IMG/VR virus record: IMGVR_UViG_3300023171_000195 | Span: 1-26,213 of that record | DNA: 26,213 nt | Reading direction: 5' to 3' (one strand) | From: a virus | Part shown: one piece after another, positions 1 through 26,213 of the stretch | Layout: every line of letters starts with the position of its first letter | Position numbering within the stretch: the first letter of the stretch is position 1 | The notes under the pieces: generated by a model | The model's database searches: none | Seen by the model: only the letters and a program-made list of their open reading frames with translations | Told to the model about the DNA's origin: nothing | Program-made: the position numbers and the translations under genes

Positions 1-2
1 GA

Positions 3-512
3 TATGTTCAATTAAATGGTTACTGTATCGTGTCCAATATGCCGTCTAAAATCACTCGTGATGAACGTAATAGATTGCATAATGCAGATGGTTCGGCAAT
101 AGAGTTTAGAGATGGATATGCACAATACTATTGGCACGGAGTGGCGGTTCCGGCAAATTGGATCTTAAGTCCTGAAACGATTACTAAGGAAACTTTAATT
201 AAAGAGCGTAATGCCGAAAAACGCAGATGTATTATGGAAATCTTAGGAGAAAGTAAATATGCTTTGCTTTTAGATCTAGAAACTGTCGAAGTCGATCAAT
301 ATAATGGTCAAGAGGTGGCTTTAATGAAAACCATTAAAGAAGATGATTTAGCTGGCGAATTCGTCTACTTCATTAAAGTGATCTGCAACTCGACACTTCG
401 TAATTACTACCTCTGCGTACCGCTGGAAGCATTTAAACTTGGCGCACTTGGAGCACTCGCTTGGACTTTTGGAATGCAAACAAATGAATACAAATTATTA
501 ATAGAAACATAA
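3..512 (+). CDS. DUF6745-like protein, 5' end outside the window
   Basis: Function unknown. The frame is open to the left edge of the window, so this is the C-terminal part of a longer protein. A GTG at 30 could serve as a start, but the residues before it (ending in NGYCIVS) fit the family, so I take the gene as truncated by the window. The stretch RDERNRLHNADGSAIEFRDG followed by YYWHGVAVP matches the signature I know from DUF6745 proteins (RDE-x-GRLHN-x-DGPAI-x-FRDG, then WHG-x-x-VP). The region after it (NAEKRRCIMEILGE) also fits that family. It is followed after 12 nt by a small gene in the same operon. Family assignment is from memory of the motif; the role in the phage is not known to me. 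Confidence 0.7.
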   Translation, partial: YVQLNGYCIVSNMPSKITRDERNRLHNADGSAIEFRDGYAQYYWHGVAVPANWILSPETITKETLIKERNAEKRRCIMEILGESKYALLLDLETVEVDQYNGQEVALMKTIKEDDLAGEFVYFIKVICNSTLRNYYLCVPLEAFKLGALGALAWTFGMQTNEYKLLIET

Positions 513-524
513 AAATCAAAAACA

Positions 525-857
525 ATGAAAAAACAAGTTTTCATCGCGCGTCAAGGAGATGTGCTAGTAAAAGAAATTTCAATGCTTCCTTCGGGAGCGG
601 TAAAAGTTAAGAGTTCAGTTGTAGCAGTTGGCGAAGGCCATCATGAGCACAAGGTAATTGGAGAGGTTGATGTACTGGAGTTAGACGAACGGCTTTACCT
701 TTCGGTAGATGCGAACGGAAAGTTAGTGCACGTCCATACTGGTACTGATAATATGGCCGAACATCTACCTATTGACCTTCCGGCAGGTACCTATGAAATT
801 GTACATCAGCGCCAGTACAATCCATACGAAAAAGCGATTGAAAGAGTGCGCGATTAA
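525..857 (+). CDS. Small histidine-rich conserved phage protein
   Basis: 110 aa, function unknown. It opens with a short beta-rich segment (RQGDVLVKEI) followed by a histidine cluster (GEGHHEHKVIGEV, about residues 36-48). Further histidines fall at HVHTG and AEHLPIDLPAGTYEIVHQRQY (about residues 69-96). The repeated G-H-x-H and AEH-x-P pattern could bind metal in a small beta-barrel; this is inference. Proteins of this pattern (QGDVL..., LPAGTYE...QR-Y) occur in phages and next to DUF6745 proteins as far as I recall. It starts 12 nt after the DUF6745-like gene and likely shares its transcript. It ends before a strong inverted repeat at 878-916. Confidence 0.7.
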   Translation: MKKQVFIARQGDVLVKEISMLPSGAVKVKSSVVAVGEGHHEHKVIGEVDVLELDERLYLSVDANGKLVHVHTGTDNMAEHLPIDLPAGTYEIVHQRQYNPYEKAIERVRD

Positions 858-877
858 TTAATTATTTTCTAACCAAT

Positions 878-916
878 GGAGGCCACTTAAACGCATGTCT
901 GTAGCGCGTGGCCTCC
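878..916 (+). terminator. Perfect 9-bp inverted repeat between early genes
   Basis: GGAGGCCAC at 878-886 is perfectly repeated inverted at 908-916, with a 21-nt loop that can form a short inner CGC/GCG stem. It is followed by TTAACTTTT, a broken T run, and the next ATG is at 930. It fills the only sizeable gap in the left operon. It could be an intrinsic terminator with partial read-through, or a folded leader of the SSB-tailed gene. The weak T tract leaves the choice open. Confidence 0.5.
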
Positions 917-929
917 TTAACTTTTAATC

Positions 930-1286
930 ATGAGCAATATTAGTACTAAAATAAATCTGGCCGCATTAAAGCATTCGGTTCGTAAAATGAAAGGTCAGAG
1001 CGGAGAAGTGGAATGCTTAATTATTCCAATAGCAGCCAATGGTCTGTTCAAAGGTGAAAAAGGTGTTTATCTAGATTTACAGGGCTTCGAGATCAAGAAT
1101 AAGGTGAACGACAGTAAAGACACCCACTTAGTAAAACAATCTCTTCCAAAAGAAATATACGAAAAACAAACTGACGAAGAAAAGAAAGCTATGCCGGTAC
1201 TCGGTAGTCATGTGCTTTGGCTTGGTGGTGGACTTGGTGATGCGGTTATTGTGGAGCAAAAAGAGGAAGATGATTTGCCATTCTAG
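930..1286 (+). CDS. Small replication-associated protein with SSB-type acidic C-terminal tip
   Basis: 118 aa. The body (ALKHSVRKMKG, VECLIIPI, KGVYLDLQGFEI, DTHLVKQSLPKE) matches a small conserved protein seen in Bacteroidota phages and prophages. Its biochemical function is not known to me. The C terminus is EQKEEDDLPF, which has the form of the conserved tip of bacterial single-stranded DNA-binding protein (acidic run followed by x-P-F). In SSB that tip recruits PriA, RecO, RecQ and other partners. Lying just upstream of the initiator and the helicase-like ATPase, the protein may bind ssDNA or dock onto SSB-binding host proteins; that is inference. No full OB fold could be confirmed by eye. 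It follows a perfect inverted repeat that may control it. Confidence 0.75.
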   Translation: MSNISTKINLAALKHSVRKMKGQSGEVECLIIPIAANGLFKGEKGVYLDLQGFEIKNKVNDSKDTHLVKQSLPKEIYEKQTDEEKKAMPVLGSHVLWLGGGLGDAVIVEQKEEDDLPF

Positions 1287-1288
1287 CT

Positions 1289-1462
1289 ATGTCTTGGAAA
1301 AACATCAACGAAGCCCATAAGCTCGAAGAAATGCACGCACTGGTAAAAATGTGTGAAAGCACTGAAAGTTCACGCATAAAAAAGGCTGCCAAACACAGGT
1401 TGAAAGTATTATCAGAAATACCAAAGGATAACCCCTTTGCAGATAGAATAATCGGTAAATGA
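1289..1462 (+). CDS. 57-aa small protein
   Basis: An ATG two bases after the preceding stop opens a 57-codon frame whose TGA overlaps the ATG of the next gene (ATGA at 1459-1462). The protein starts MSWKNINEAHKLEEMHAL and ends ADRIIGK. It is charged and helical in character, with no membrane segment and no domain I recognise. The support for it being real is the exact packing: it fills the gap between two genes and is translationally coupled to the initiator. Function unknown. Confidence 0.65.
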   Translation: MSWKNINEAHKLEEMHALVKMCESTESSRIKKAAKHRLKVLSEIPKDNPFADRIIGK

Positions 1463-2109
1463 ATTATATAGAATTAATAAGAGGTTTTTGGCGTTCGCAC
1501 GAAGAACATTCATTCAGTACCACAGAAATAGCGCTCTATTTCCATCTTTTGGAAGTATGCAATATCTGTAGCTGGAAAAATCCATTCAAGCGCAACAATT
1601 CTAAAATCGGAGCGGATTTAGGAATTTCATTCAACACGCTTAAAAATTCTAGAAATAGACTTGCACAATGCGGTTTATTAACATTCAAAACCGCTAATGG
1701 TAGCCCAAATGTAATCTACACCTTATCAAAATTTGACAAGGTCACTAACGAGGTTAGTACCGAGGTCAATGATGAGGTTAGTACCGAGGTTGCTAACGAG
1801 GTTTTGCCGACTAAAGATAAACTAAACAAAACAGTAAAGACAAGTAGTATAGTTGATCGAAAATTAAAATTTTCTCAATCTCTCTCTCCTTTTCTTGAAA
1901 CATACGGTAAGGATGTTTTGAACGAATTCTATAGATACTGGACAGAGCCTAATAAATCCAATACAAAATTTAGACAAGAACTTGAAAAGACTTGGGATTT
2001 AAAGCGAAGATTGGACACTTGGACAAAGAATGATTTCAACAAATCTAAAAGCAAACCCTTTTCCAAATTGGCTGTGGACGAATCTGAAAACAAGAACATT
2101 TTCGCATAA
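1459..2109 (+). CDS. Winged-helix replication initiator / replisome organizer-like protein
   Basis: 216 aa. The N-terminal third looks like a winged-helix DNA-binding domain: STTEIALYFHLLEVCN, then NNSKIGADLGISFNTLKNSRNRLAQCGLL as the recognition helix region, then a wing (TFKTANGSPNVIYTL). A low-complexity linker of EVxx tetrapeptides follows (about residues 94-117). The C-terminal half (FLETYGKDVLNEFYRYWTEPNKSN, then TWDLKRRLDTWTKNDF) resembles C-terminal regions of phage DnaD-like initiators and helicase loaders. It sits directly before, and overlaps by 1 nt, a RecA/DnaB-fold ATPase, the usual initiator-helicase order. The linker DNA carries 12-bp-phased repeats that could be the binding site of this protein. 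Initiator rather than ordinary transcription factor is inferred from size, architecture and neighbours. Confidence 0.7.
   Translation: MNYIELIRGFWRSHEEHSFSTTEIALYFHLLEVCNICSWKNPFKRNNSKIGADLGISFNTLKNSRNRLAQCGLLTFKTANGSPNVIYTLSKFDKVTNEVSTEVNDEVSTEVANEVLPTKDKLNKTVKTSSIVDRKLKFSQSLSPFLETYGKDVLNEFYRYWTEPNKSNTKFRQELEKTWDLKRRLDTWTKNDFNKSKSKPFSKLAVDESENKNIFA
1738..1803 (+). repeat. 12-bp-phased GAGGT repeats inside the initiator gene (candidate origin)
   Basis: GAGGTT or GAGGTC occurs at 1750, 1762, 1774, 1786 and 1798, exactly 12 bp apart, with a degenerate AAGGTC copy at 1738. The 17-mer GAGGTTAGTACCGAGGT is present twice, 24 bp apart (1750-1766 and 1774-1790). An AT-rich stretch follows (about 1815-1890). 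This is the layout of an iteron origin lying inside the initiator gene, as in lambda O. The repeat also encodes a tetrapeptide EVxx linker, so a purely protein-level explanation is possible. Confidence 0.5.
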
Positions 2110-3134
2110 TGAAACGGAAGATTTCAGACTATACAGACAGCGTAATGAACCATTACGAGACTGGTGTACAGCGAGGCCAAGATACTGGATTTAAAAGCCT
2201 TGACGAGCTGTTGAGTTTCAAATTAGGCTACTCAACCTTTTACCTCGGTTTTGCAGGAGCAGGTAAAACGGAATTCCATATGGAAATGATGTTTAACCAA
2301 TCCGAACGTTACGGATGGAAGCACGGTTTTTTGTCTGGAGAGATTGGGAACATGGATGATGTGATTGGCGAGCTCATCAGTAAGTACCTGCGTAAGCCCT
2401 TCTTTAAATCAAACCCTTTTTCCGCTACTGAAGCTGAAATTTACAAAGCTATGAACTGGTTAGACGAACACTTTTACCCTGTTGATGGTGATGATACCGA
2501 CCATAATATTGAGAGTTTTTTTGAATACTGGAAAAGCTTGGAAAAGGAACTTGGAATAAAATTGCAAACTACTTCACTAGATCCATTCAATGACTTAGAA
2601 GAGGATTTAACGCGTTTTGGGGGGAGGGAAGATAAATATCTAGCATGGGCGCTTAAAAAAGTAAGGCAAGAGGCCAAAACAAATAATTGGCATAATAACA
2701 TAGTGACCCACGCAAAAGATTTACCTCCGATAACTCTAAAGGACCTTACTGGACAAGAGGTTTATTGCACCGCAATTCCTACACTTAACAGTTTTGCTGG
2801 CGGGGCCGTATGGGGTAGGAGGGCTTTTAACGTAGTTGGAGTATGGCGGCCAGAACACAATCATATCAATGGACAAACCATTTTAACTATGAACCCTGCG
2901 ACCGGAATGCCATTTGATCTCAATGAAGCTATCATCAAAATATTAAAAGCTAAACCAAAGGGAACTGCAAAAAAGGGTTCTATGTCAATTTATTTTGACT
3001 GGAAAAAGAACCGTTATTACGAGAAATATAATGGACACAATTCTTATGCTTTTGAGCATGAAAATAGTACTCCGGTTTTTCACCAAACACTGCTATTACC
3101 AAGCGAATCCTTTAACGAAGATGCACCATTTTAG
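2109..3134 (+). CDS. RecA/DnaB-fold replicative helicase-like ATPase
   Basis: 341 aa. Walker A is LGFAGAGKTE at about residues 46-55, preceded by a DnaB-type entry segment (GFKSLDELLSFKLGYSTFYL). A hydrophobic strand ending in acid residues (LQTTSLDPFND, about residues 178-188) is the likely Walker B. This fits the RecA/DnaB/T7-gp4 helicase core that unwinds DNA at the fork with ATP. At 341 aa it is shorter than a full DnaB (about 450) and has no obvious N-terminal primase-interaction domain, so loading may depend on the upstream initiator, whose stop codon it overlaps. The last residues, FNEDAPF, again resemble the acidic-x-P-F tip of SSB. A RecA-like recombination ATPase is the alternative. 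Confidence 0.7.
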   Translation: MKRKISDYTDSVMNHYETGVQRGQDTGFKSLDELLSFKLGYSTFYLGFAGAGKTEFHMEMMFNQSERYGWKHGFLSGEIGNMDDVIGELISKYLRKPFFKSNPFSATEAEIYKAMNWLDEHFYPVDGDDTDHNIESFFEYWKSLEKELGIKLQTTSLDPFNDLEEDLTRFGGREDKYLAWALKKVRQEAKTNNWHNNIVTHAKDLPPITLKDLTGQEVYCTAIPTLNSFAGGAVWGRRAFNVVGVWRPEHNHINGQTILTMNPATGMPFDLNEAIIKILKAKPKGTAKKGSMSIYFDWKKNRYYEKYNGHNSYAFEHENSTPVFHQTLLLPSESFNEDAPF

Positions 3135-3136
3135 AT

Positions 3137-3520
3137 ATGAGCTACAAAAACTTGAACGGCCTCTCAAAACTGGAACAACACTATTTCGATTTGGCAGAGG
3201 TTTATTTGACACAGTATAACGATCATTTGCTTTCATCCAAAAAGATAATGGTAGTCCAGGGAATTATAGTAACAATGTATAGTGACCTGATGGAATTTTT
3301 AATAAAAAATAAGCCTACCGATAAATCAAACGTACAAAAACAAAGACTGGAAAAATTATTGGAAATCACCACGGAATTTTCAAAAGTATCATCTAACAAT
3401 ATTCAGATGCAACTTGACTTGAAGTGTAGAACGGACGATTATAATAAACTGAAAATTGAAAATAAAGAACTAAAGGATGAGTTGGAGGCCATTAGAAAGG
3501 CATGGAACACGGAAAAGTAA
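3137..3520 (+). CDS. Coiled-coil early protein, unknown function
   Basis: 127 aa, not recognised. The N-terminal half is helical and mixed (LSKLEQHYFDLAEVYLTQYNDHLL). The C-terminal 40 residues have the heptad and charge pattern of a coiled coil (DYNKLKIENKELKDELEAIRKAW). No signal peptide or transmembrane segment. It begins 2 nt after the ATPase stop and overlaps the next gene by 19 nt, so it belongs to the replication operon and may be an oligomerising accessory factor. That role is only inferred from position. Confidence 0.6.
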   Translation: MSYKNLNGLSKLEQHYFDLAEVYLTQYNDHLLSSKKIMVVQGIIVTMYSDLMEFLIKNKPTDKSNVQKQRLEKLLEITTEFSKVSSNNIQMQLDLKCRTDDYNKLKIENKELKDELEAIRKAWNTEK

Positions 3521-3774
3521 GCAAAGCTTTCGATTGGGTAATTAAATACCTGATAGCTATGCCAGAAGGCACCCACATAAAGGTTAAAGATGTACCTGTC
3601 AATGATAAGAAATTATTGGTAGAGCTCGTAAAGGCCTATATCGATTGCTACAATGATGTTGAGTTTAACGCAAATTATACCACCATCTACAAAATAGGAA
3701 CAATTAACATAAAAATCACGCAAGATTATGAATTACGAACAAATTTTAGAGAACAAAAAGCCGATCATTATTGA
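3502..3774 (+). CDS. Small early protein, unknown function
   Basis: 90 aa, not recognised. It overlaps the coiled-coil gene upstream (19 nt) and the helicase-methyltransferase gene downstream (47 nt), an arrangement typical of phage operons. The sequence is of mixed alpha/beta character (KVSKAFDWVIKYLIAMPEGTHIKVKDV), with aromatic residues near the C terminus. The long overlap with the next gene might mean that gene uses a later start, but no better ATG with a supportive context was found before the helicase core. Function unknown. Confidence 0.6.
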   Translation: MEHGKVSKAFDWVIKYLIAMPEGTHIKVKDVPVNDKKLLVELVKAYIDCYNDVEFNANYTTIYKIGTINIKITQDYELRTNFREQKADHY

Positions 3775-5977
3775 CTCTGGTTTCGATATCGATTTAAAAA
3801 AGCTCAACAAAAAAATGAAGGCTTTTCAAAAATTCTGTGTCCAATGGGCATTGAAACGGGGAAAGGCCGCACTGTTCGAAGATTGTGGACTGGGTAAGAC
3901 CTTTCAACAATTGGAATGGGCAAATCAAGTAAGAATTTATACCAACCAACCCGTACTTATTTTAGCGCCTTTGGCGGTTACTGCGCAAACAGCAAAAGAA
4001 GGTGAAAAATTCGGGATTAAGGTCATACCGTTTTTAGATGAATTTTATTCTCTAAATTTTTTACCTGCAGAAATTTATATCGTCAACTATGAGCAACTGG
4101 AAAATATACAAGGGTTTATTGAACAATTCGCTGGTGTGGTGTTGGATGAGAGCTCAATCCTTAAAAACTTTACTGGATCTTATAAAAACCTGATCATAGA
4201 TGCATTTAAACTAACGCCATATAAGTTAGCTTGTACAGCTACTCCATCTCCGAACGACTTAAACGAGATAGGAAACCATAGTGAATTCTTAGATGTTTTG
4301 GACGCTCAAGATATGCGTTCTAAATGGTTTGTTCGTGAAGAGGGAATGAATAATTACCGACTGAAGGGACACGCTAAGAAAGACTTTTACGCTTGGATAT
4401 CAAGCTGGGCGAAGATGTTCTGTAATCCCGCCGATATCGGCTTTCCTGAAAAGGGTTACAATCTTCCAAAACTGGAATACATAGAGCGACATATTGTTAC
4501 GGAAAACCGTAATGACGGCCAGCTATTTAATTCTAAAGCTATTAATGCTACGAATTTCAATAGCGAGCTTCGATTAACCAAAATAGAACGACTAAGCGAA
4601 GTGGCCGATATCGTCAATAATTCATCGGAGCAATTTATCATTTGGATAAAACAGAACGAAGAGGGCGAAGCACTTAGAAAATTGATACCAGATGCAATTG
4701 AGGTAAAAGGATCTGATCAGACCGAAGTCAAACAAGCTAATCTTTTGGGTTTTGCTGAAAATAAATTTCGCGTACTGATCACTAAAGCTAAGATTGCACA
4801 ATTCGGATTGAATTACCAGAACTGCCATAACCAGATTTTCGCTTCCCTAGATTTTTCTTTCGAAGGCCTATACCAAGCTATTCGAAGATCATATAGATAC
4901 GGCCAGTTGCATAATGTAAATATTTACCTCATCACCACCGATACGATGGAGAATGTGATAAAAACGATCCGCAGGAAGGAAAAACAGTTCTTGGAGATGC
5001 AAGCCGAAATGAACCTTAATATCAATTCTAAGGAATACGGTTTGCTCAACACTTATGAATTTAGAGAGTTTAAAAATGGCAAGATCTGGCTAATGAAAGG
5101 CGACACCGCAATCGAACTTGATAGGCTGGAAGATAATAGCGTCGATTTTATGATTTTTAGCCCGCCCTTTAAAGCTTTGTTCACCTACTCGAACTATATA
5201 CATGATTTAGGTAATAATGCCTCTAGCGATGATTTTTGGAGACAATACCATTTTATATTAAAGCAGCTTTATAGGGTTCTTAAACCTGGTAGGCTTATGG
5301 TTTGCCACACCAAAGATCTAGGAGTTTATAAAAATAGCTCTGGATATACGGGAATGGATAACTTCACAGATGAACACACCATGTTTGTTGAAAATTCTGT
5401 TTATCCGAAAGATGCACCAATTGGTTTTAAATTGCATTCTAAGGTTACTATTTGGTGTGACCCGGTATTGGAGATGCAGCGAACCAAAACGCAAAGGTTA
5501 CTGTATAAAACCTTAACTACAAATTCGGCTTTAACTGGAATAGGGATGGCCGAGTATTTAAGGATATTCAAAAAATGGGACGGTACGGACGAATCCAATT
5601 GGGAACCCGTTAACCACTTAAATAAGCAAAATATACCATTAGATCTTTGGCAAAAATGGGCTTCACCAGTTTGGATGGATATTAAACGAACTGATGTTCT
5701 TAACGGTAAAGAGGGGACTGCAATGGGCGATGAAAAACATATTGCACCTCTTCAACTGGAAGTGATCCATAGATGCGTAAATATGTGGAGCAATCCAGAT
5801 GATACAGTTTTTACGCCTTTTTTAGGTATAGGATCAGAAGCTTACGTAGCACTAAACAATAACCGTAAGGTAATTGGTGTAGAATTGAAAGATAGCTATT
5901 TCGACACGGCCGTTAAGAATTTGAAGAAGGCTAATGATTTAAAAGCTCAAGGTTCACTTTTTGATATCGCATCATGA
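3728..5977 (+). CDS. SNF2-like helicase fused to an N4/N6 DNA methyltransferase
   Basis: 749 aa with two enzyme halves. Residues about 30-425 are a superfamily 2 helicase/translocase: motif I DCGLGKT (52-58), motif II VVLDESS (138-143, DExx box), motif III CTATPSPND (169-177) and motif VI QAIRRSYRYGQ (383-393). Residues about 450-740 are a beta-class amino-methyltransferase: catalytic motif IV SPPF at 478-481 comes first, and the SAM-binding motif I FTPFLGIGS with GVELKDSYF comes near the C terminus (about 695-725). SPP[F/Y] is most typical of N4-cytosine enzymes, but N6-adenine cannot be excluded. The polypeptide probably moves along DNA and methylates it, which would protect phage DNA from restriction. 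All key motifs are intact, so activity is plausible. It is followed with a 4-nt overlap by a DndC-like gene, suggesting a joint modification module. Confidence 0.85.
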   Translation: MNYEQILENKKPIIIDSGFDIDLKKLNKKMKAFQKFCVQWALKRGKAALFEDCGLGKTFQQLEWANQVRIYTNQPVLILAPLAVTAQTAKEGEKFGIKVIPFLDEFYSLNFLPAEIYIVNYEQLENIQGFIEQFAGVVLDESSILKNFTGSYKNLIIDAFKLTPYKLACTATPSPNDLNEIGNHSEFLDVLDAQDMRSKWFVREEGMNNYRLKGHAKKDFYAWISSWAKMFCNPADIGFPEKGYNLPKLEYIERHIVTENRNDGQLFNSKAINATNFNSELRLTKIERLSEVADIVNNSSEQFIIWIKQNEEGEALRKLIPDAIEVKGSDQTEVKQANLLGFAENKFRVLITKAKIAQFGLNYQNCHNQIFASLDFSFEGLYQAIRRSYRYGQLHNVNIYLITTDTMENVIKTIRRKEKQFLEMQAEMNLNINSKEYGLLNTYEFREFKNGKIWLMKGDTAIELDRLEDNSVDFMIFSPPFKALFTYSNYIHDLGNNASSDDFWRQYHFILKQLYRVLKPGRLMVCHTKDLGVYKNSSGYTGMDNFTDEHTMFVENSVYPKDAPIGFKLHSKVTIWCDPVLEMQRTKTQRLLYKTLTTNSALTGIGMAEYLRIFKKWDGTDESNWEPVNHLNKQNIPLDLWQKWASPVWMDIKRTDVLNGKEGTAMGDEKHIAPLQLEVIHRCVNMWSNPDDTVFTPFLGIGSEAYVALNNNRKVIGVELKDSYFDTAVKNLKKANDLKAQGSLFDIAS

Positions 5978-7188
5978 AAAGCGGAGTTCAAACAAACTTA
6001 TTCACCGGGTCTAAGAGACTCCAGATGAACGAAAGCATTGAGTTAACTATTCAATCAATGAAAGCATATGGACCTAGATATAATCACTGGTCAATCGCAT
6101 GGAGTGGAGGTAAAGATAGTACTGCTACCCTCACTTTAATAGTTTGGTTGATTCAATCAGGCAAAATCGAGAAACCTAAAACACTAACCGTGCTGTTTGC
6201 AGATACAAGATTGGAGCTAACACCATTAATGGCATCTGCCTATGAAATAATGGATGATTTAAAACAGCTCGGTATTGAAGTCAGGATAGTTATGGCCGAA
6301 ATGGATAAACGTTTTTTTGTGCTGATGTTTGGCAGAGGAATACCACCTCCAGGAGCTGGGTTTCGCTGGTGTACTGGTAATATTAAAATTGTTCCTATGG
6401 AAACTGAACTTAAAGCTCTTTATGAGGAAAAGGGAGAAAAAATTTTAATGATTACTGGAGTTAGGCAAGGAGAATCGGCTGTAAGAGATAATAGGATAAT
6501 TGTTAGCTGCAGTAAAGACGGTACTGAATGCGGACAAGGATATTTTCAACAAACTTTATCTGGATCAATGTGCGATACACTTGCCCCGTTAGTTCATTGG
6601 AGGGTTTGCCATGTCTGGGAATGGTTAAGAACTTGGGCTCCTATGGAGGAGTATGGAGGGTGGAGTACTAAAATGGTAGCGGAAGCATATGGAGGAGACG
6701 AGGCGGAAGAAATTAATGCAAGAACCGGGTGCATGGGTTGTCCAGTTGCTAGTAAAGATAAAGCTTTAGAAACAGTTGTCAAACGTGATTCTTGGAAATA
6801 CCTTACTCCATTATTGCGATTAAGGTCAGTGTTCGAAACTTTAAGACTAAAAAAGTCATTTAGAAAACGTCATCCAGGAGGTGAAACTAAAAAGGATGGA
6901 ACATTAGTAAAAAATCAGCAAAGAATGGGGCCGTTAACGATGGAGGCAAGGAGATGGGGAATATCACAAATTCTAAGTATCCAGAGTGAAGTTAATGAAT
7001 TAGCTATAAAGGAAGGTAGAACTGTAGTTGATATATTAAATCAGGACGAAGTAAATCGCATAGAGAATCTAATTCTTAATAATACTTGGCCGGATAAGTG
7101 GACTGGCGATGAACCTACTGCTGATACGCAAATGGATACCGTGTATCGAGATGGAACAATTCAGCCACTTATAAAATTCGGAGAGTAA
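5974..7188 (+). CDS. DndC / PAPS-reductase-like sulfurtransferase
   Basis: 404 aa. A PP-loop AWSGGKDST (residues 42-50) activates substrates with ATP, as in the PAPS reductase and DndC family. Further family features are FADTRLELTP (75-84), RWCTGNIKI (131-139), GVRQGESAVR (162-171) and a Cys pair GCMGCPVASKDKALE (252-266). The last resembles the DndC motif GCxxC followed by a D-K-(S/A)-(M/L) segment, where cysteines hold an Fe-S cluster. Extra cysteines lie at 133, 179, 186 and 200. DndC works with DndA, DndD and DndE to put sulfur on the DNA backbone; none of those is visible here. The gene overlaps the helicase-methyltransferase by 4 nt, so it probably acts on nucleic acid, not in sulfate assimilation. 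Whether it makes phosphorothioate or another modification is open. Confidence 0.8.
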   Translation: MKSGVQTNLFTGSKRLQMNESIELTIQSMKAYGPRYNHWSIAWSGGKDSTATLTLIVWLIQSGKIEKPKTLTVLFADTRLELTPLMASAYEIMDDLKQLGIEVRIVMAEMDKRFFVLMFGRGIPPPGAGFRWCTGNIKIVPMETELKALYEEKGEKILMITGVRQGESAVRDNRIIVSCSKDGTECGQGYFQQTLSGSMCDTLAPLVHWRVCHVWEWLRTWAPMEEYGGWSTKMVAEAYGGDEAEEINARTGCMGCPVASKDKALETVVKRDSWKYLTPLLRLRSVFETLRLKKSFRKRHPGGETKKDGTLVKNQQRMGPLTMEARRWGISQILSIQSEVNELAIKEGRTVVDILNQDEVNRIENLILNNTWPDKWTGDEPTADTQMDTVYRDGTIQPLIKFGE

Positions 7189-7194
7189 ATCAAA

Positions 7195-7455
7195 TTGAAA
7201 TTAGAACAATTCTATACCGGTGTTACTTGCGAGGATGCTGGTATAGATAATTCCGATATCAAATACTTTTGCCATAAGGTCGGCCGACTGATCATTAAAT
7301 CCTTTAATGTTAAGGAATGGATCGAGGCAGATGTAAACGGTAGTTTTAATGAAAAATATACTGAGTTCACCAAATCTAAAAAGAAATCATCAATTAATTT
7401 GGGTGATATGATCGGGAAAGGTGGAGGCAATTTCAGACGCAAGAGGTTACCTTGA
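7195..7455 (+). CDS. Small basic-tailed protein, last gene of the early operon
   Basis: 86 aa, not recognised. The only usable start is TTG at 7195, because an in-frame TAA lies at 7186-7188 and no ATG is available near the 5' end. It contains CEDAGIDNSDIKYFCHKVGRLIIKSF and ends in a basic, glycine-rich tail (MIGKGGGNFRRKRLP) that could contact nucleic acid. It lies 6 nt after the sulfurtransferase gene and ends the + strand run. No convincing terminator was seen in the 59 nt that follow. Function unknown. Confidence 0.55.
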   Translation: MKLEQFYTGVTCEDAGIDNSDIKYFCHKVGRLIIKSFNVKEWIEADVNGSFNEKYTEFTKSKKKSSINLGDMIGKGGGNFRRKRLP

Positions 7456-24797: not shown

Positions 24798-25016
24798 ATG
24801 ACTGGAAAGGAATTATTTGAGTATTACACGCTTTATCGTGACTATAGCGGGGACGAAAGGGACGAGTATGCACAAACTTTATTTACTGCTCTACTGATTG
24901 TAGGAGAGGGCAAGTTATACAGATTTCTAGAAGATGCAGAAGAGCATGACAAGAAAATTAGGCTGGTCGAAGACAAAAACGTAGACGGAGCTCCTTATGA
25001 CATTGAGCTTATCTAA
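24798..25016 (+). CDS. 72-aa acidic protein opposing the MuF-protease gene
   Basis: 72 aa, family not recognised. It is strongly acidic (18 Asp/Glu against 9 Lys/Arg), mostly helical at first (GKELFEYYTLYRDYSGDERDEYAQTLFTALLIVGEG), with the end LVEDKNVDGAPYDIELI. It is the only + strand gene within the late head operon. Its 3' end overlaps the stop of the MuF-like gene by 8 bp, tail to tail. A perfect -7 box and a terminator lie upstream, so it has its own regulation. A small acidic protein next to the toxin-like domain of a polymorphic MuF protein could be an immunity or inhibitor protein; this is inference from position, charge and size. Confidence 0.6.
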   Translation: MTGKELFEYYTLYRDYSGDERDEYAQTLFTALLIVGEGKLYRFLEDAEEHDKKIRLVEDKNVDGAPYDIELI

Positions 25017-26213
25017 GGTACTTTTCGATATGTGCAATCATTTCTTCGTATAAATCTGGTGCAACTTTCTTAAAGTACGAATTACCTATGAACTTGTTTT
25101 CAAATGCATGAGCGATGAATTCGGCTTCTTTTTTGAAAGGATGGCTAAAATACTCTTTAGTATGGCCCGCTCCAAAACTTGGATTTAATGCCATTAATGT
25201 GTCGGCAAAGGAAGATATCTTTTCAATTTCATCGAAATCCTTTTTCTCGAATGCTTTCGATACACTATCAAATACGGAAGTATTGAGATTTATAAAACCT
25301 TTGTTCTTGTTGCTTGAATACTTATTTCTGTATTTGTCCATTAGGTCAGTTACCAGTCCATCGGTACGCATTCCTTTCTGCCAGTCGATTGCGTGACCAT
25401 ATTCGTGATAAACAACCGCTTCCGCTTCCCATTTACTCTTTTCTTCCCTTTGTGATGGCTGAAAATTGATGGATTTGGTTTGAACATTATACGCTGTGCC
25501 TTTAGATCGCAATCTTGTGAATGGCACCGGTATATCGAGCTGATTAAAGATATTCTTATCGATAGTTACCTTCGTTTGTTTTTCGTATTTCTCAATTCCC
25601 TCTGGTATAAATTTATTGGTTGATGGTTTTACGCTTTCGCCCAATAGCTTTTTCGCCATTCGCTCGCTCATGTAATAAATCCTACATCTGCAATTCACAC
25701 AGTTCTTAGCTCCGCCAGCCGGATCACCCGGAGCTTCCATAGCTACACCTCCGACTAAGAACTTTTCTTCTCCTTGAACAATGTGTAATTGCAGCATAGC
25801 ACGATGGGCGTCACGGGTTCTACTGTCATTCGTAGCACTCCATTCCTTCCACTTTTTTTGACCCGTTTCTTTTTCCCACGCTGTAGCTCCTAACTTATGG
25901 CCTTGCGATGCGGATCTCGTAGATTCTGTTCTTGCAATGACAGTGGATCGATAAATTGTAAATTCGCTACTTCCCTCTTTTCTGATCATTCTACCGATCT
26001 CTCTCGCTCCAAGGCCTTCCTGAATTCCTCGATAGTGTATAGACCTAATTTTATCTAGGGTTGTATTTGTGATCTTGGTAATGTGATCTCCAGAGTTTAA
26101 CATCACCCAAGCTTGAACTTGTTTGAGCCATCTGTTAAGTAAACCCGAACCAATCCCCGCCTTGGTTGGATTATTCTTTCTCAAGTCAAGATATTGCCAT
26201 TTGGCACTATCCA
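25009..26213 (-). CDS. MuF-like minor head protein with C-terminal zinc metalloprotease domain, 5' end outside the window
   Basis: At least 400 aa. The frame is open through the right edge. A TTG at 26184 is not taken as the start because upstream residues (DSAKWQYLDLRK) continue it. Counting from 26184, the MuF domain covers about 30-180: GLGAREIGRMIRKEGSS, VIARTESTRSASQGH, WSATNDSRTRDAHRAM, and the closing PGDPAGGAKNCVNCRCRIYY with the Cys-x-x-Cys-x-Cys cluster (162-167). A second domain follows (about 190-391) with VVYHEYGHAIDW, an HExxH zinc site (H260, E261, H264), and a downstream KKEAEFIAHAFE (E353/E355) able to supply the third ligand. MuF proteins sit at the portal and are injected or packaged. 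In polymorphic MuF toxins the C-terminal domain is the toxin. Substrate unknown. Confidence 0.85.
   Translation of the reverse strand, partial: DSAKWQYLDLRKNNPTKAGIGSGLLNRWLKQVQAWVMLNSGDHITKITNTTLDKIRSIHYRGIQEGLGAREIGRMIRKEGSSEFTIYRSTVIARTESTRSASQGHKLGATAWEKETGQKKWKEWSATNDSRTRDAHRAMLQLHIVQGEEKFLVGGVAMEAPGDPAGGAKNCVNCRCRIYYMSERMAKKLLGESVKPSTNKFIPEGIEKYEKQTKVTIDKNIFNQLDIPVPFTRLRSKGTAYNVQTKSINFQPSQREEKSKWEAEAVVYHEYGHAIDWQKGMRTDGLVTDLMDKYRNKYSSNKNKGFINLNTSVFDSVSKAFEKKDFDEIEKISSFADTLMALNPSFGAGHTKEYFSHPFKKEAEFIAHAFENKFIGNSYFKKVAPDLYEEMIAHIEKYLR

Follow-up and report, generated by a model that had tools for sequence, protein, structure and literature searches.

PP-loop enzymes use ATP to activate their targets. 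Among them, DndC transfers sulfur from a cysteine desulfurase, either DndA or the host enzyme IscS, into DNA (PMC10853773; PMC12193691), and in the phosphorothioation systems known so far, an ATPase and a partner recognizing DNA are required besides the sulfur enzyme (PMC12707154). It has been proposed that a specificity loop of DndC reads the major groove of DNA and that four cysteines of the E. coli B7A protein (Cys146, 273, 280 and 283) are ligands of a 4Fe-4S cluster (PMC12193691). Here we analyze a DndC-like PP-loop protein encoded in a linear virus fragment of 26,213 bp, the IMG/VR virus record IMGVR_UViG_3300023171_000195 (referred to as the window), where its gene follows a gene for a helicase-methyltransferase fusion. 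An earlier note, made from the sequence of the window, had interpreted this gene pair as a phage module for combined methyl and sulfur modification of DNA. By sequence comparison the protein is related to DndC without being a DndC, and it belongs to a widespread phage clade that is probably filed under the wrong function. The features on which the comparison is based are:

3728..5977, plus strand: helicase-methyltransferase fusion of 749 amino acids (Pfam, PHROG_16, motifs and AlphaFold model)
5974..7188, plus strand: DndC-like PP-loop protein of 404 amino acids (PHROG_12882, annotated 'phosphoadenosine phosphosulfate reductase')
5974..5977, plus strand: ATGA start/stop overlap of the fusion gene and the DndC-like gene, 4 nucleotides (sequence)
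6331..6375, plus strand: stretch of the DndC-like protein (residues 120-134, GRGIPPPGAGFRWCT) that aligns with the DndC specificity loop

Relationship of the phage protein to DndC and CysH

The 404-residue protein carries the motifs SGGKDS, RWCT, GVRxGES and GCxxC that the earlier note had recognized, and all of them show little or no variation across 84 relatives, in which cysteines 133, 179, 186, 212, 253 and 256 are invariant as well. The PHROG_12882 profile covers residues 6-400 (E 1.7e-170), making the protein a full-length member that differs in nothing by sequence from this family, the functional label of which is what looks wrong. A profile-profile comparison with eight DndCs extended over 315 columns (99.9%, E 7.5e-34), and that with SspD over 122 columns (E 1.2e-11). 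The phage family formed a clade of its own with support values of 95/100 (97/98 without long branches), located on the DndC side of the tree and apart from SspD, in line with the DndC-like character suggested earlier. SspD and BrxP, both phosphorothioation proteins, likewise have a PP-loop, RWCT and a GCxxC-type pair. An identity with SspD was rejected, considering the separate clades in both trees and only about 120 alignable columns; SspB/SspC or BREX partners were not seen among the phage-gene neighbours in the window, no profile search aimed at SspB/SspC having been made.

The phage protein and DndC have in common the PP-loop, the G-x-P-x-P...RWCT loop, the GxRxxES motif and the GCxxC pair, with the G-x-P-x-P part before RWCT being kept in the alignment, and the identity to Salmonella DndC amounts to 28%. 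The invariant cysteines of DndC are Cys146, 262, 273, 280 and 283. Three of the four proposed Fe-S ligands are retained in the phage family, Cys133, 253 and 256 being the equivalents of Cys146, 280 and 283, whereas Cys262 and Cys273 have no counterparts and the loop containing them is shortened. On the other hand, the phage family exhibits three extra invariant cysteines, Cys179, 186 and 212, which might substitute as cluster ligands. The curated cut-off of the DndC family model TIGR03183 is 290.4 bits; the phage family scored 129-133 bits and none of 28 phage relatives passed, whereas the Bacteroidota DndCs passing this cut-off scored 322-543 bits.

The DndD-binding C-terminal region is absent from the phage protein, as the profile alignment stops at column 358 of the 464 DndC columns. 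Likewise, none of the 28 phage records, some of which (the window included) are fragments, contained DndD or DndE above the respective cut-off, the DndE model having been verified on a Salmonella dnd record. The earlier note had pointed out the lack of visible dnd partners in the window. Retained DndC-like motifs and cysteines combined with a missing DndD-docking C-terminus might also be expected of a decoy directed against host phosphorothioation defences (Dnd, Ssp or type 4 bacteriophage exclusion, BREX), for instance by titration of IscS or mimicry of DndC. We consider such a counter-defence role improbable, since neither the PP-loop core residues nor the six cysteines vary among 84 sequences, which implies catalysis, and DndD was found above the family cut-off in 0 of 31 host genomes searched, with a clear homologue in an operon only in Pelobium.

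The AlphaFold model of the DndC-like protein is confident (predicted local distance difference test, pLDDT, 88.5; predicted template modelling score, pTM, 0.86), and a search by sequence for a solved structure yielded none. A fold search of the PDB returned only generic PP-loop matches, among them GMP, NAD, tRNA-thiolase and phosphoadenosine phosphosulfate (PAPS) reductase structures with similar Z values (11-14), and because of this tie the search does not discriminate function. In a viral structure library, other phage PAPS-reductase-like proteins were matched with weak E values. Since PP-loop enzymes are biochemically diverse and the fold search favoured no subgroup, the protein could act on RNA, such as tRNA, or on a nucleotide or small molecule, e.g. 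by thiolation during infection, and its proximity to methylases would then reflect early operons collecting such genes. This explanation appears rather unlikely to us, as PAPS_reduct was the sole match to Pfam, with no tRNA-thiolation PP-loop family being detected, and the match to DndC is long and strong and includes the proposed DNA-reading loop.

The PAPS_reduct domain is common to many PP-loop proteins, DndC included. It was detected in the window protein with 43.6 bits (domain cut-off 22.5), compared with 199.5 bits in E. coli CysH. Current annotations nevertheless favour an assimilatory PAPS or adenosine phosphosulfate reductase (CysH) encoded by an auxiliary metabolic gene: this label is used in GenBank phages and for PHROG_12882, and phage cysH has been counted among the auxiliary metabolic genes of sulfate assimilation (PMC10914622; PMC8879888), the genes of these surveys not necessarily belonging to the present clade. 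A CysH identity is contradicted by the C-terminal catalytic motif ECG[LI]H, which is present in E. coli CysH and in 0 of the 84 relatives, and by hhalign, which assigned a probability of 6.6% (E 0.0056) to the alignment with E. coli CysH; moreover, the CysH branch in the tree has a length of about 6. The firm placement among PAPS reductases that the earlier note had named as the contrary outcome did not occur, and we judge a role as CysH to be very improbable. No experimental study of this phage DndC-like family was retrieved in literature searches.

Side observations concern several further proteins. The PAPS-reductase-like protein of Thermus phage Tsatsa (L009:1710-2669) shares 34% identity and the SC..GGECGQG motif with the window protein; it comprises 319 amino acids as annotated and differs in its DndC-like RFGCWTCTVV sequence and in the lack of an adjacent methylase. 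This pairing of motifs may mark the protein as an intermediate, and the authors describing Tsatsa stated that such proteins merit study (PMC11437467). The human-gut phage contigs MT836308 and MT838064 (L344 and L345) encode proteins within or beside the true DndC clade, unlike the family of the window. Short DndC-like proteins of 345-357 amino acids in Bacteroidota genomes (L340-L342) form a separate clade beside DndC; they score 265-272 bits, slightly under the DndC cut-off, and two of them start with a CxxC motif. The genome of Pelobium manganitolerans has a prophage with the DndC-like gene in addition to a real dndC-D operon (L328/L335 and L343).

The helicase-methylase fusion and its pairing with the DndC-like gene

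According to its sequence, the 749-residue protein is an SNF2-type superfamily 2 (SF2) helicase (approximately residues 10-430) joined to an N6/N4 (beta-order) DNA methyltransferase (approximately residues 455-735). Pfam matches comprised SNF2-rel_dom (1.4e-7), Helicase_C (3.5e-5) and N6_N4_Mtase (3.4e-20), and the helicase(-methylase) family PHROG_16 matched residues 30-747 (E 2.6e-68), thereby spanning both domains. The motifs GLGKT at residue 54, DESS at 140, TATP at 170, QAIRRSYRYGQ at 383, SPPF at 478 and FTPFLGIGS at 695 were located, and every motif named in the earlier note is among those found in the two proteins. The AlphaFold model is fair (pLDDT 81.7, pTM 0.71), and its helicase half matches Ino80/SNF2 ATPases (TM 0.68, by target length), its methyltransferase half the methylase TTHA0409 (TM 0.81). 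An SNF2-family ATPase and a DNA methylase in one phage protein are also found in the helicase-methylase dyads of PHROG_16, represented by P1 DarB and its relatives, and by analogy with these DarB-like dyads an anti-restriction role of the fusion is plausible. The DarB type, however, consists of an EcoKI/TaqI-like adenine methylase followed by an SF2 helicase in a polyvalent protein (PMC5512222), whereas in the window the helicase precedes an N6_N4_Mtase domain. Membership in the DarB type was rejected on the basis of this reversed domain order and the N6/N4-type methylase.

The two genes overlap as previously described, the sequence CATCATGAAAAGC containing an ATG at 5974 and a TGA at 5975-5977, and translational coupling through this ATGA overlap is likely. 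Dozens of phages and prophages encode homologues, and together with the full-length PHROG matches this indicates that both open reading frames (ORFs) are real genes and not chance ORFs. The same gene order with a 4-nucleotide overlap recurs at the loci L029, L100, L120 and L142, so the arrangement of the window is not unique; moreover, the fusion adjoins the DndC-like gene in L095 and L122, and in L011/L092 the fusion, a C5 methylase and the DndC-like gene are consecutive. Such arrangements could reflect one machine, in which the SNF2 helicase takes over the ATPase and translocation role of DndD, the methylase recognizes the site and the DndC-like protein adds sulfur, matching the three functions of sulfur enzyme, ATPase and DNA-recognition protein needed in known phosphorothioation (PMC12707154). 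Yet the fusion was present within 3 kb of the DndC-like gene at only 10 of 47 non-redundant loci, and C5 methylases devoid of a helicase occupy the same place. No fusion lies within 6 kb of the gene in L010, the locus of the closest DndC-like relative (85% identity), and a reverse scan of the 80 nearest relatives of the window fusion, comprising 19 non-redundant fusion loci with at least 3 kb on both sides, detected a DndC-like gene in the flank examined in 0 of 80 cases. We therefore assign a low probability to the single machine.

An obligate pairing of the two genes was rejected by the reverse scan, and the obligate methyl-plus-sulfur machine envisaged in the earlier note found no support, its partner being interchangeable or absent. 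For the same reasons a joint enzyme in which the helicase half replaces DndD cannot be the general mechanism of the family, the fusion being absent near most DndC-like genes; in single phages such an enzyme is possible.

Distribution and genomic neighbourhood

Relatives of the DndC-like protein are encoded at no fewer than 219 places in IMG/VR and at least 120 places in genomes, including those of Hymenobacter, Pontibacter, Pseudomonas, Rhizobium, Burkholderia and Methylobacterium. DNA methylases were the commonest immediate neighbours: position -1 was occupied by a C5 methylase in 12 of 73 cases and by an N6/N4 methylase in 2 of 73, and position +1 by a C5 methylase in 4 of 57 cases, with two N6/N4 and two D12 methylases. 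After removal of near-copies, 55 loci showed methylases at positions -1, -2 and -3 in 18, 19 and 12%, and at -4 to -6 in about 0-2%. The bias towards offsets of up to 2 in either direction versus 4 or more yielded p=1.3e-4 in Fisher's test. This within-locus position profile served as the main neighbourhood test; the controls based on replication genes were limited to 13 and 4 loci, and one of the control genes had itself been picked beside a DndC-like gene. In RR1-A (L003), L017, L036, L101, L134 and L165 a C5 methylase gene overlaps the DndC-like gene by a few nucleotides, and the type of the adjacent methylase is interchangeable (C5 or N6/N4). The recurrent co-occurrence sought by the earlier note accordingly holds for methylases, which recur beside the DndC-like gene in unrelated phages, and not in general for the helicase-methylase fusion.

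At L016:3809-8441, a C5 methylase, the DndC-like gene and a D12 methylase follow each other with 4-nucleotide overlaps. Genes for reverse transcriptases that resemble those of diversity-generating retroelements and carry a GxPIGNYLSQ-type motif lie a short distance upstream of the DndC-like gene in L010:4635-5699 and L057:261-1406; among 73 upstream neighbours, 3 contained RVT_1. Comparison of the DndC-like protein with that of L010 resulted in a dN of 0.147 and a saturated dS, i.e. a low amino-acid divergence relative to silent change; the dN/dS ratio is not given because of this saturation.

Positions 1-7,455 of the window comprise rightward early genes, with the helicase-methylase and DndC-like pair in the final part of the early replication region, and mainly leftward lysis, tail and head genes lie beyond. 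Additional features of the window are:

30-512: early-region gene matching DUF6745 (PF20530, E 1.9e-24)
2109..3134, plus strand: RecA-fold/DnaB-like replication protein of 341 amino acids (phrog_5482, 3.6e-39; phrog_239 primase/helicase, 5.7e-19)
7195..7455, plus strand: small ORF without family match in Pfam or PHROG, last in the rightward early cluster
25009-26184, minus strand: phage Mu F-like head protein, the C-terminal region of which resembles a zinc metallopeptidase, with a HEYGH motif and weak matches to M91/SprT

Proposed function and its meaning for phage cysH genes

The best overall explanation, to which we give about an even chance, is that a phage-specific cousin of DndC performs a DndD-independent DNA modification, probably with sulfur, in a phage modification region and thereby helps to evade restriction. 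The DndC-like protein would activate its target with ATP by means of the PP-loop, would carry a metal-cluster-like cysteine set and would modify DNA, most likely by inserting sulfur from the host cysteine desulfurase IscS, working without DndD, DndE and DndB. Together with methylation by the adjacent helicase-methylase, this modification would help the phage DNA to escape host restriction, the two enzymes providing co-expressed, separable marks of one modification region instead of forming one obligate complex. The anatomy of the genes, the kinship with DndC, the lost CysH and DndD-docking features, the missing DndD and DndE and the positional bias of methylases are observed; sulfur as the transferred group, IscS as its donor and protection as the purpose are inferred.

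Several observations weigh against this explanation. Its main weakness is that no gene for an ATPase or DNA-recognition partner is conserved beside the phage DndC-like genes; the protein may need no partner, may rely on host factors or may have a substrate other than DNA. In addition, Cys273, the proposed fourth cluster ligand of DndC, lacks an equivalent, and we infer the DNA substrate and the addition of sulfur indirectly. Most DndC-like genes are devoid of an adjacent methylase, and a methylase of the C5 or N6/N4 type was encoded somewhere in 20 of 28 carrier phages versus 16 of 25 control phages, without a clear difference. The neighbourhood of the primase control was methylase-rich too (8 of 13 within 3 kb versus 27 of 47). 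Since methylases are common in comparable phages and around the primase, the association could be partly regional. The similar methylase carriage, the fusion relatives lacking the DndC-like gene and L010, which has none of the other early genes of the window in common, indicate that the DndC-like gene moves on its own, and it tends to settle behind a methylase of any kind.

As a tentative extension, this large, probably mislabelled phage family could represent a single-protein modification of DNA with sulfur, or another ATP-driven one, that is independent of DndD and DndE and paired with whichever methylase the phage has. The observation of the earlier note was confirmed and its interpretation partly supported, the interest lying less in the gene pair than in the family. 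Viral surveys take phage 'cysH/PAPS reductase' genes as evidence of phage-steered sulfate assimilation; in the present clade, the sequences are at odds with such a role and point to DNA modification. The function of phage PAPS-reductase genes is directly testable in named carriers, the Pseudomonas phages Dobby, D14A and phiC725A and Rhizobium RR1-A. Should the protein sulfurate DNA unaided, the system would be much smaller and simpler than Dnd or Ssp, and it might serve as a tool for marking DNA. If the tentative extension holds, many of the phage auxiliary metabolic genes labelled 'cysH' would serve to mark DNA.

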